Of a stretch of 64,000 bases of DNA, positions 1 to 63,141 are shown piece by piece. Each line of letters opens with the position of its first letter. Position 1 is the stretch's first letter. The notes beneath the pieces are model-generated. The model was not told the origin of the DNA and ran no database searches. It worked only from the letters and a program-made list of their open reading frames with translations. Both the position numbers and the translations under genes were made by a program. This DNA comes from Candidatus Gastranaerophilales bacterium (GTDB lineage: Bacteria > Cyanobacteriota > Vampirovibrionia > Gastranaerophilales > Gastranaerophilaceae), in assembly GCA_016280955.1 (NCBI GenBank), contig JAEEHV010000043.1:1-64000 (forward strand), written 5' to 3'.

Positions 1-416
1 CTGAAAAAACTGTTAACGGTGAAACTGTTCCCGCTTACAAACTTCAGGAAAAAGTTACAGACAAAGGTACTTTTGAAAGCCTTGAAGAAGCAAGAAGAGA
101 CAAACTCGCTGCTGATTGTGCAGGTTTAACTGATGGTACAACTGCTGCATCTATGCTTAGCTACATTGATGATGTTATCAACACCATCTCTAATCGTGTA
201 ACAACTTTAGGTGCTGCTCAGAACAGAATTGAATCTGCAATTGAATCAATCGGTGTTCAGTCTGAAAACATTACATCTTCTCTGTCAACACTGAGAGATG
301 CTGATGTTGCTACTGAATCTTCCAACTACATCAAAGCTCAAATCTTACAACAAGCATCTGCAACATTGCTTGCTACAGCTAACCAAACTCCAAGTATTGC
401 CTTAAATTTACTGTAA
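1..416 (+). CDS. Flagellin, C-terminal part (5' end outside window)
   Basis: The frame is open from base 3. C-terminus ...TTLGAAQNRIESAIESIGVQSENITSSLSTLRDADVATESSNYIKAQILQQASATLLATANQ..., same as the downstream full-length flagellin. The track ORF 153..416 starts at an internal Met. Confidence 0.93.
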   Translation, partial: EKTVNGETVPAYKLQEKVTDKGTFESLEEARRDKLAADCAGLTDGTTAASMLSYIDDVINTISNRVTTLGAAQNRIESAIESIGVQSENITSSLSTLRDADVATESSNYIKAQILQQASATLLATANQTPSIALNLL

Positions 417-448: not shown

Positions 449-1363
449 ATGGCAATTACAATTAACACAAACCTATCATCAATGATTGTTCAGTCGAATT
501 TGCAGAAATCTACAAATCAGTTGAACACTGCGATTGAACGTATGACGACAGGTTACAAAATCAACCATGCTGCAGATAATGCCGCTGGTTACTCTATTGC
601 AAGGAACTGGGAAGCACAAATCAGTTCTCTGGACATTGCTGCAGACAATGCTGCAATGGGTGCAGATATGTTGTCTACTCTTGAAGACAACTATGCTCTT
701 ATCTCTTCTCACGTTCAACGTGTAAGAGATTTGACAGAACAGGCTGCTAACGGCACATATGGTGAACAGTCCAAAAAAGCAATTGAATCTGAAATTCAGG
801 CTAGATTGGAAGAAATCAACCGTATCGCACTAAACTGCGAATACAACGGCATTAAAATGATGGATGGTACTAATGCTACCGCTAAATCAATTCAGGTTGG
901 TATTGACGGTACTGCTGCAAAGAGCCAAATCACACTTTCTTCCGATTTGTTTGCTGATGCTAAAATATCTGCATTATTCAATGTAACCGGTGAAGGTGCA
1001 TATACACCTACAGGTGATGATGAAGCAGCAAAACTGGCTCAACTTGCAAAAGACTGTGCAGGTACAAGTACTGCTGAAACTCCGAAAAAACCGACACAAT
1101 TACTGGGAACTTTAGACAGAGTTATCAGCAGAATATCTGACCGTATCACCACATTAGGTGCTGCTCAGAACAGAATTGAGTCTGCAATTGAATCAATCGG
1201 TGTTCAGTCCGAAAACATTACATCTTCTCTGTCAACACTGAGAGATGCTGATGTTGCTACTGAATCTTCTAACTACATAAAGGCACAAATATTACAACAG
1301 GCTTCTGCAACACTGCTGGCAACAGCTAACCAGTCGCCAAGCATTGCTTTGAATTTATTGTAA
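449..1363 (+). CDS. Flagellin
   Basis: Canonical N-term (MAITINTNLSSMIVQSNLQKSTNQLNTAIERMTTGYKINHAADNAAGYSIA) and C-term flagellin domains. SD AGAAAGGAG upstream. Confidence 0.97.
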   Translation: MAITINTNLSSMIVQSNLQKSTNQLNTAIERMTTGYKINHAADNAAGYSIARNWEAQISSLDIAADNAAMGADMLSTLEDNYALISSHVQRVRDLTEQAANGTYGEQSKKAIESEIQARLEEINRIALNCEYNGIKMMDGTNATAKSIQVGIDGTAAKSQITLSSDLFADAKISALFNVTGEGAYTPTGDDEAAKLAQLAKDCAGTSTAETPKKPTQLLGTLDRVISRISDRITTLGAAQNRIESAIESIGVQSENITSSLSTLRDADVATESSNYIKAQILQQASATLLATANQSPSIALNLL

Positions 1364-49083: not shown

Positions 49084-49207
49084 ACAAACATCATACTATA
49101 AGAAAAATACTCATGTAAATAAATGTAACAATTTCTAAAAATCAACCGTATTTCTCTAAAGTTTTTATGAAAAAAACCGATATATCAACTGTAAGGAGAA
49201 TTAAATA

Positions 49208-49786
49208 ATGTCAGAAGATTTTGAAATAGATAAGGATTCTCAAGGGGAACAAGAAAATGAGTCAGGGACTCAGGAACGAAAAGTTATTGACGAAGCTAAT
49301 TATAAAGTCAGAGCACCCCGGGAAAACGGACCTACTGCTGTCGGCAGAGGCGGAGATCCTTTATTCAGACGTATTCGTGCTACAAAAGAACAGCTAATTG
49401 AACTTATGGAAGAAACTCAGACTGTTCAGGATTGGGTTCAGAGAGAAACCAGTAATAATGTAGCTTTAAGTTGTCTTGAAAATGAAGATTTAAAAGAAAT
49501 TTACTTTGCTATTAAAGACGGTTTCGGTGAATACGGAAGAATTTCACTGATGGGCTATAAAACTCCTTATGGTGTAGAAATACCAAGATTAAAAATATAT
49601 GATAAAAACGGTGAAGTAATAGAAGTTTTAACCGGACCTATGGCGATTGATGAACTTAACAGAAGGGCTGTTGCTTACAAAAATACACAAAAGGGCTATG
49701 AAGCACTGCCAATTGAAGGAAATGAACCGCAGGATGAATGTGTAATTGGCGATTATAGCGGTAATCCTGATGATTACGTTAATTAG
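49208..49786 (+). CDS. Hypothetical protein
   Basis: 192 aa ORF with SD TAAGGAGAA; no family recognised. Confidence 0.7.
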   Translation: MSEDFEIDKDSQGEQENESGTQERKVIDEANYKVRAPRENGPTAVGRGGDPLFRRIRATKEQLIELMEETQTVQDWVQRETSNNVALSCLENEDLKEIYFAIKDGFGEYGRISLMGYKTPYGVEIPRLKIYDKNGEVIEVLTGPMAIDELNRRAVAYKNTQKGYEALPIEGNEPQDECVIGDYSGNPDDYVN

Positions 49787-57472: not shown

Positions 57473-57598
57473 TTATGAATTAATCATTCTGTCCAGTTCA
57501 TAAACTTTTAATACGATAGTATCAAGCTGCTCTTTAAACCATAAAGCAAACATGCCTACCTGTTCGCGAAAGCTGTAACATCCCGGCCACATATACAT
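57473..57598 (-). CDS. 41-aa small protein of unknown function (below the ORF-track length cut-off)
   Basis: MYMWPGCYSFREQVGMFALWFKEQLDTIVLKVYELDRMINS; strong SD AGAAAGGAG (as in the flagellin gene) upstream; preceded by a sigma-28-type promoter. Confidence 0.75.
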   Translation of the reverse strand: MYMWPGCYSFREQVGMFALWFKEQLDTIVLKVYELDRMINS

Positions 57599-57636: not shown

Positions 57637-57663
57637 ATATCGGCATAATTTTCAAAAACTTTA
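57637..57663 (-). promoter_or_regulatory. Sigma-28 (FliA)-type promoter
   Basis: On the minus strand TAAAGTTT-N11(TTGAAAATTAT)-GCCGATAT: 15/16 to TAAAGTTT-N11-GCCGATAA. Confidence 0.85.
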
Positions 57664-57769
57664 ATTAAAAACCGCATTTTGTTACAAAAATTTACAAATT
57701 ATTTAAAAACAGCCAATTAAAAAAAGTAAAAAGACTTTATTATTTAGTTGTTGAACTGTCGGCTCCTGT

Positions 57770-58156
57770 TTATGCCGCAAATATATTTTTGAGATTCTTG
57801 TCAATTACGTAGTCACATAATTCACCTGTGTAAGAATCTTCTTCATCGCCGTCTTTGTTGGAAGTAAAATCATCCCACAGTTCGCCCAAAACATATTTCT
57901 TTTTCTTATCCTCAGCACGGCTTCTGAGATAATTCATTGTTTCTCTGAGTGAATTGTGCAAACTAATCTGAGCTGAAGTACTAAAAATAACAAAAGCAGA
58001 AGATGCCGGGTAATTTTTTGCTGCAAAGACAGTACCTGAAGAAGCTTCTTCAGCTTTTTCCGTATTCACAGCATTTGTCCGGAGAGTACTTTTTGCCATA
58101 CTTTCCGAAAATTCACGATTTTGAAAACCCATTGATGTTGATACATTGATACCCAT
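57770..58156 (-). CDS. Hypothetical 128-aa protein, predicted FliA regulon member
   Basis: MGINVSTSMGFQNREFSESMAKSTLRTNAVN...; downstream of an exact sigma-28 consensus promoter. Confidence 0.75.
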   Translation of the reverse strand: MGINVSTSMGFQNREFSESMAKSTLRTNAVNTEKAEEASSGTVFAAKNYPASSAFVIFSTSAQISLHNSLRETMNYLRSRAEDKKKKYVLGELWDDFTSNKDGDEEDSYTGELCDYVIDKNLKNIFAA

Positions 58157-58245
58157 AGTCAGATCCCTTTTCGTGCGGCATCCCTATTACCGCTTCCTTT
58201 TTAATTTTCCGGCTCCTTGTCGCTTTGTTTTCCCTTGTACTATTG

Positions 58246-58272
58246 TTATCGGCACATTTACCCAAAACTTTA
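58246..58272 (-). promoter_or_regulatory. Sigma-28 (FliA)-type promoter
   Basis: On the minus strand TAAAGTTT-N11(TGGGTAAATGT)-GCCGATAA: 16/16 match with the exact 11-nt spacer. Confidence 0.93.
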
Positions 58273-58381
58273 ATTTTTATAACATTTTTCTTAAAAATTG
58301 TTACAAATCTTTACATTACAGCTGATAGTATGTTTTAAGGCGATATTTATAGTATTATTAAGAAAGAATTGGGAGGATTTA

Positions 58382-62147: not shown

Positions 62148-62594
62148 ATGGGAATGGACGGGTTTTCAATTGCGAATACCGGCATTGTGCAGGATAAGAC
62201 ATCTGCTGAAATGAGCAGCAGAGTTGAACAATCTATAGCTGCAGATCCTACAAATTCAAGCCAGCAAGTTCAGGAAGCGGCAACAAACCGGAGAGTTAAC
62301 GAAAAAGAAGAAAACGAAGAAGAAAATCAAAAACGAAAAAACCAGCAAAACGACACTTTTCAAGACGGATACGTTGAAGAAAAACAAGAAGATACTGAAT
62401 CTGAAATACATGTTGAAGATTTTGAAAACCCAGATAAAAATTTTTATGTTAAACTAAATGTAAAAGATGATATAATAGAATTATATGATAGTTCATCCGA
62501 CAGATTGGTAGAAACAATTTCCGGCGCTGAACTGGGAGAACTTGTTCAGAAACTGAACATAGCCTCCGGCATATTTGTTAACAAAAAGGTTTAA
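62148..62594 (+). CDS. FlaG-like flagellar protein
   Basis: C-term KNFYVKLNVKDDIIELYDSSSDRLVETISGAELGELVQKLNIASGIFVNKKV; followed by fliS. Confidence 0.8.
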   Translation: MGMDGFSIANTGIVQDKTSAEMSSRVEQSIAADPTNSSQQVQEAATNRRVNEKEENEEENQKRKNQQNDTFQDGYVEEKQEDTESEIHVEDFENPDKNFYVKLNVKDDIIELYDSSSDRLVETISGAELGELVQKLNIASGIFVNKKV

Positions 62595-62598
62595 AAGC

Positions 62599-63141
62599 AT
62601 GCCACCGGGAAATCCTTACGCAAAATACATAAAACAATATCAGGCAAATAACATTAACACCGCAACTCCGGAAAAGTTAATGATAATGTTGTTTGATGCT
62701 GCAATTCAATTTTTGCAAAAAGCTAAAACATCTATTGCAGAAAAAAACTTTCAGGAACGCACAACCAACATTGACGGTGCCAGAAAAATTATAAGAGAAC
62801 TTATGAGAACAATTGATTTGGAAAACGGAAATGACGTTTCAAAACAACTGTTCAAATTATATAACCGCATGGCAATGAATCTTATAAAAGCAAATGTCCA
62901 AAGGGATACCGGTAAAATTGATGAAGTTATTAATGACCTTTCAAATATAAGATGGGGCTTCCAAAAAGCTATTGAAATACAAAGTGGTGTTACGACTATA
63001 GAACAGGCTATGCAGGATCAAACAATGCAGGAGATGGCAATTCAACCGGGTACAATGCCTGAACAAGCAGCTCCGCAAGCAGACATAACTACCGCAGAAA
63101 ATAAACTTACAGCTGAAAATGGAGATAATAATGCAGGATGA
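62599..63141 (+). CDS. fliS: Flagellar export chaperone FliS
   Basis: NPYAKYIKQYQANNINTATPEKLMIMLFDAAIQFLQKAKTSI...GARKIIRELMRTIDLENGNDVSKQLFKLYNRM. Start set to MPPGNPY. Confidence 0.93.
   Translation: MPPGNPYAKYIKQYQANNINTATPEKLMIMLFDAAIQFLQKAKTSIAEKNFQERTTNIDGARKIIRELMRTIDLENGNDVSKQLFKLYNRMAMNLIKANVQRDTGKIDEVINDLSNIRWGFQKAIEIQSGVTTIEQAMQDQTMQEMAIQPGTMPEQAAPQADITTAENKLTAENGDNNAG

Follow-up and report, generated by a model that had tools for sequence, protein, structure and literature searches.

In cyanobacteria, HLR1 is the box of the response regulator RpaB (PMC9241938); its consensus is KTTACAWW-N2-KTTACAWW, and RpaB activates from boxes placed at about -45 to -66 and represses where the box overlaps the start site (PMC13421787). 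Melainabacteria retain rpaA, rpaB and nblS without photosynthesis, and another function has been guessed for these genes (PMC3787301; PMC4040986; PMC5877343). Class-3 promoters of the E. coli FliA (sigma-28) type, in turn, consist of two elements with an 11-nt spacer and serve targets such as fliD. Here we describe promoters from Candidatus Gastranaerophilales, a non-photosynthetic gut relative of cyanobacteria, that resemble both systems. They have the two elements, the spacer and the kind of target of the E. coli type but, unlike those promoters, most carry an HLR1-type box phased upstream of the core, and many of their targets are unknown proteins encoded outside flagellar operons. With the RpaB/HLR1 regulon of photosynthetic cyanobacteria they share the identical 18-bp consensus (as its reverse complement), the upstream placement of the box and the presence of an RpaB orthologue; the targets, however, are of the sigma-28 flagellar type, in a gut lineage, and are not photosystem genes. 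Among the papers listed in the literature searched, mostly outside subscription, we found none that names FliA together with RpaB or HLR1.

The window, that is, the whole stretch of 64,000 nucleotides that was analysed, was the subject of an earlier note, which proposed that an exact sigma-28 promoter drives the gene for a 128-aa protein. The features of this locus are:

57770 to 58156, minus strand: 128-aa ORFan gene with an ATG start, conserved in the genus and, as remote homologues, present in 7 further genera of its family
58246 to 58272, minus strand: sigma-28 (FliA) promoter core TAAAGTTT-N11-GCCGATAA, upstream of the 128-aa gene and conserved at its orthologues
58300 to 58317, minus strand: HLR1-type (RpaB) box AATGTAAAGATTTGTAAC, which fits WWTGTAAM-NN-WWTGTAAM without a mismatch and is separated by 27 nt from the sigma-28 core downstream

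The minus-strand sequence at 58272..58246, TAAAGTTTTGGGTAAATGTGCCGATAA, is made up of TAAAGTTT, an 11-nt spacer and GCCGATAA, and agrees with the sigma-28 consensus at 16 of 16 positions, just as the earlier note had it. It is the single exact match within the 64-kb window and was found in 0 of 100 dinucleotide shuffles; moreover, the distance to the start of the ORF (58156..57770), put at about 90 nt, is 89 nt. A recognizable sigma-28 site precedes all 28 same-genus orthologues and 45 of 46 named orthologues, two sets that overlap in part because public species genomes feed both; the remaining promoter (L150) is cut off by the end of its contig. Among the remote homologues the sigma-28 versions range from exact to degenerate, the degenerate ones being weak evidence when taken alone. 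Thus, the core stands above chance and is conserved upstream of orthologues, as expected of a sigma-28 class-3 promoter, and the proposal of a conserved, dedicated promoter of this type is supported. The absence of the sigma-28 pair upstream of orthologues, which was to count against the proposal, was looked for, and the pair is conserved together with the gene instead, so that the proposal survives on its own terms. What had been overlooked is the HLR1-type box: judged from sequence, the promoter is a composite of HLR1 and sigma-28 elements, and the box is its more surprising part. Our main reading, to which we assign a probability of about 0.68, is that the 128-aa gene is a late, class-3 type gene of the flagellar regulon, with a composite promoter under joint control of sigma-28 and RpaB and, more tentatively, with an accessory or exported product.

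The 128-aa ORF has orthologues in 28 of the 33 same-genus genomes, with identities of 31-53% and in-frame indels, and is therefore a real gene. A profile search (E<1e-3) detected homologues in 14 genomes that belong to 7 further genera of this family, and a search of genome contigs with a profile of the closer members detected 46 loci; with the window protein as the sole query, the search of genome contigs found nothing. Nearly all of the named orthologues belong to uncultured gut bacteria or to MAGs whose titles read Candidatus Gastranaerophilales, Melainabacteria or Cyanobacteria; two titled Acinetobacter are taken as mislabelled bins. The larger alignment shows no variation at M1, Q63, L77, G91, W94 and a C-terminal N-I-F-x-A. 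Every same-genus genome searched has a flagellin gene, whether or not it has the 128-aa gene; two near-complete genomes of the genus, G016 and G178, lack the 128-aa gene, and the presence of flagellin in G016, for example, indicates that it is not essential for flagella, but accessory. The window also encodes lpxI and lpxB, but in a search for conserved neighbours these adjoin the 128-aa gene in the nearest relatives only, so that function cannot be deduced from an operon partner. Directly 3' of the stop codon, 28 of 46 relatives have a CU-rich, anti-Shine-Dalgarno-like stretch (mostly UCUCCUC, and invariant in the 12 aligned), against a background of 3%, followed by a hairpin with a covarying stem (see for example L131:6406-6475 and L142:4029-4098). 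Possibly, the stretch and hairpin form a terminator or a 3'UTR small RNA; both are absent in the species of the window.

Searches of Pfam, NCBIfam, PHROGs and PDB sequences with the 128-aa protein gave weak and inconsistent hits, none of which survived scrutiny, in agreement with the earlier view that it belongs to no known family; the FlaF and FliW HMMs, suggested at the same time, gave no match to the ORF. The sole PDB sequence hit, a short one to a V-ATPase helix, is not believed to reflect kinship. Structure models are helical and of low confidence (pLDDT of 58.8 and 62.5), which would be expected of partner-dependent folding and of a shallow alignment alike, and does not discriminate between them. 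By eye, there is no hydrophobic N-terminal stretch and no evident signal peptide. The gene shares its control with fliD, the gene for the filament cap, and our preferred guess, though a tentative one, is that its product is an accessory or exported protein co-expressed with the flagellum. Fed-like genes are sigma-28 dependent. The title of a study on the Fed-like system, cited in PMC9856085, speaks of non-flagellar genes that are co-expressed with flagellar genes, and the 128-aa gene, with its sigma-28 promoter, would work alike; there is, however, no sequence relation seen between the two, and for the 128-aa protein export is a candidate property. Close behind this guess, and somewhat more doubtful, we rank a cytoplasmic regulator of motility or export, such as an adaptor or chaperone partner, that is not itself exported. 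Such a role would suit a small, helical protein whose ends (MGxN... and ...NIFAA) and core helix are highly conserved, and regulated turnover is possible in view of the -FAA end, loosely like the -LAA end of the tmRNA tag; that the ...NIFAA end is itself a degradation tag akin to the tmRNA tag (...ARLAA) is unsupported. On the other hand, the protein has no homology to regulator or chaperone families, and the weak similarity that NCBIfam searches gave between some members and response regulators of the RpaB/YycF type vanishes on profile comparison (probability of 0.2%), which leaves chance similarity between helices.

The sigma-28 promoter of the 128-aa gene is one of many. In its 15-position form, TAAAGTTT-N11-GCCGATA, the pattern has 26 sites in the whole genome versus 0 for the reversed pattern, and sigma-28 sites are found in 58 of 58 same-genus genomes searched, where the reversed controls total 4 matches. 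One exact site precedes fliD. The site counts relative to the controls, together with the fliD target, point to a genuine sigma-28 regulon, made up mostly of ORFans: among the targets checked with Pfam, FliD was recognized, L075 (G000:C58:72379), a target with both sigma-28 and HLR1 elements, matched calpain-like cysteine proteases weakly and short of the cut-off (PF00648, E=0.00085), and the others had no convincing family.

Most orthologues and regulon sites have TGTAAA-N4-TGTAAC, which is HLR1 in reverse complement, ahead of the core. Exact 16-bp core boxes number 96 in the genome versus 4 for reversed controls; 15 of the 26 sigma-28 sites have such a box at a distance of 60 nt or less, in the same orientation in all 15 cases, with gaps of 16-17 nt (12 cases) or 27-28 nt (3 cases, including the gap of 27 at the 128-aa gene). 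Even assuming a 10-fold local enrichment near promoters, the binomial P for these phased boxes is about 1e-19. When up to 2 mismatches in the 18-mer are allowed, a box is found within 90 bp at 20 of the 26 sites of this genome and, in three other genomes, at 38 of 39 sigma-28 sites (shuffle mean 1.3 each); no box was found within 90 bp at the remaining 6 sites of this genome, and at 11 of the 26 the box departs from the published RpaB consensus at no position. The gaps between box and core cluster at 6-7, 16-18 and 27-28 nt, in steps of about one helical turn, which places the predicted HLR1 box on one face of the helix upstream of the sigma-28 core. Likewise, all 46 orthologue promoters, the one in the window included, have a box (3 mismatches or fewer) at gaps of 7, 16-17 or 27-28 nt, versus 8 of 46 in shuffles. 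Across the order, the composite TGTAA-N17-28-TAAAG-N14-15-GCCGATA is found in 152 of 196 genomes and in 36 of 45 genera (reversed control 0). Most of the genomes are MAGs, and counts made across the genus overstate the number of separate events because related sequences are not independent. The within-genome tests of the regulon (20 of 26 sites; 15 phased cases) are free of this kinship problem. Both the 128-aa gene and the greater part of the sigma-28 regulon conserve the composite arrangement, as predicted from the two motifs. L128 (G000:C58:15341) differs: its promoter, the single flagellin promoter at which a sigma-28-like site was seen, lacks the HLR1 box that most of the regulon has.

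HLR1 boxes also occur beyond the sigma-28 promoters. About 15 of the other loci read have the box ahead of degenerate sigma-28 cores, at a gap of 17. At least 13 boxes precede, at a similar distance, a different promoter-like pattern, TGAAAT...ATACTTTATATATA (L231, L238, L244, L245, L251, L256, L260, L262, L265, L272, L273, L274 and L278).

Two other composite promoters and several flagellar genes lie in the window:

57473 to 57598, minus strand: 41-aa ORF MYMWPGCYSFREQV..., found in 54 of 58 same-genus genomes
57638 to 57663, minus strand: second exact sigma-28 core, upstream of the 41-aa ORF and about 600 nt downstream of the first core
57681 to 57698, minus strand: HLR1-type box TTTGTAAATTTTTGTAAC, free of mismatches and separated by 17 nt from the second sigma-28 core downstream
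49112 to 49182, plus strand: third composite, an HLR1-type box (1 mismatch) and a near-consensus sigma-28 core, TAAAG...ACCGATA, with a gap of 17
49208 to 49786: 192-aa ORF without a Pfam match, downstream of the third composite
62575 to 63141: FliS, next to weak matches to FliT and FlaG
449 to 1363, plus strand: complete flagellin

The genomes with the 41-aa ORF include 37 of the 37 of high quality, with identities of up to 79%, and the composite promoter, with a gap of 17, is present at 8 of 8 loci checked; the ORF likely encodes an unannotated small protein of the flagellar regulon. The statement that no flagellar gene is adjacent holds for the 128-aa ORF, which none adjoins, but the window does contain FliS and flagellin. 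A Flagellin_C fragment at the start of the window (153-416, plus strand) precedes the complete flagellin, forming a tandem.

The genome encodes an RpaB orthologue (G000 C7:5498-6214) with a score of 355 bits versus the NCBIfam cut-off of 330 and with intact receiver and winged-helix domains; no other protein of this genome exceeds that curated cut-off. Since the box at 58300-58317 matches the 18-bp consensus with 0 mismatches, and the regulator is encoded in the same genome, we infer that the 128-aa gene is an RpaB/HLR1 target, an attribution drawn from the identity of the motif and the presence of the regulator. WalR/YycF and related regulators, however, read TGTAA repeats similar to HLR1, and OmpR-family paralogues (200-206 bits) are also encoded, at G000 C28:48349 and C36:25008. 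Thus, another response regulator of the OmpR family, with the same 10-bp repeat, could bind the box in place of RpaB; we consider this unlikely in view of the 11 sites of this genome that match the RpaB consensus perfectly and of the standing of RpaB alone above the curated cut-off. It also seems improbable, to a similar degree, that RpaB turns late flagellar genes off, through repression or mere poising of these promoters. RpaB does repress from boxes that overlap the start site (PMC13421787), and six sigma-28 sites have no box inside 90 bp; the boxes, however, precede the core, most of them within or beside the reported activating zone, and their 10-bp phasing is typical of activators. Relative to inferred starts, the gap-17 boxes would lie at about -52 to -69 and that of the 128-aa gene, one helical turn farther from the core than most, at about -62 to -79, the published activating zone being -45 to -66. 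Under joint control by sigma-28 and RpaB, the sigma-28 RNA polymerase would read the core after completion of the hook, while an NblS-like kinase would phosphorylate RpaB, which would then bind HLR1 and activate through contact with the polymerase. Expression would in that case require both flagellar completion and a second signal.

That the 128-aa protein is a diverged FlgM anti-sigma-28 factor, an option raised in the earlier note, is very improbable: its size, sigma-28 promoter and disorder (FlgM, too, is a small protein of the sigma-28 system, poorly ordered alone), a faintly FlgM-like C-terminal pattern (GELxxFxID...NIF) and the lack of any gene above the FlgM cut-off in the relatives speak for it, but no homology to FlgM was detected, with no match to Pfam FlgM (PF04316) even at E<=10 among 29 family members and no signal on profile comparison with the FlgM-like family of the order, which has a separate gene in this genome, and the 128-aa gene is missing from some flagellin-bearing genomes. 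The divergent FlgM-like family (G000:C4:25064-25321, minus strand, L313), followed by a TPR-like protein and present in most relatives, is itself a weak FlgM match and a candidate for the FlgM of the order.

Melainabacteria keep RpaB and NblS without photosynthesis, and the promoters in which a phased HLR1 box is joined to a sigma-28 core provide a concrete candidate function for them. The composite promoter defines a regulon by sequence alone, and this regulon includes a new protein family and the conserved 41-aa protein. More speculatively, RpaB may co-regulate the sigma-28 regulon through phased HLR1 boxes in flagellated non-photosynthetic relatives of cyanobacteria, and its control of surface structures could predate its role in photosynthesis. 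If so, the sigma-28 regulon of RpaB would consist of late flagellar genes and of proteins co-expressed with them, and the control of photosynthesis by RpaB would have been added later, in the photosynthetic line.
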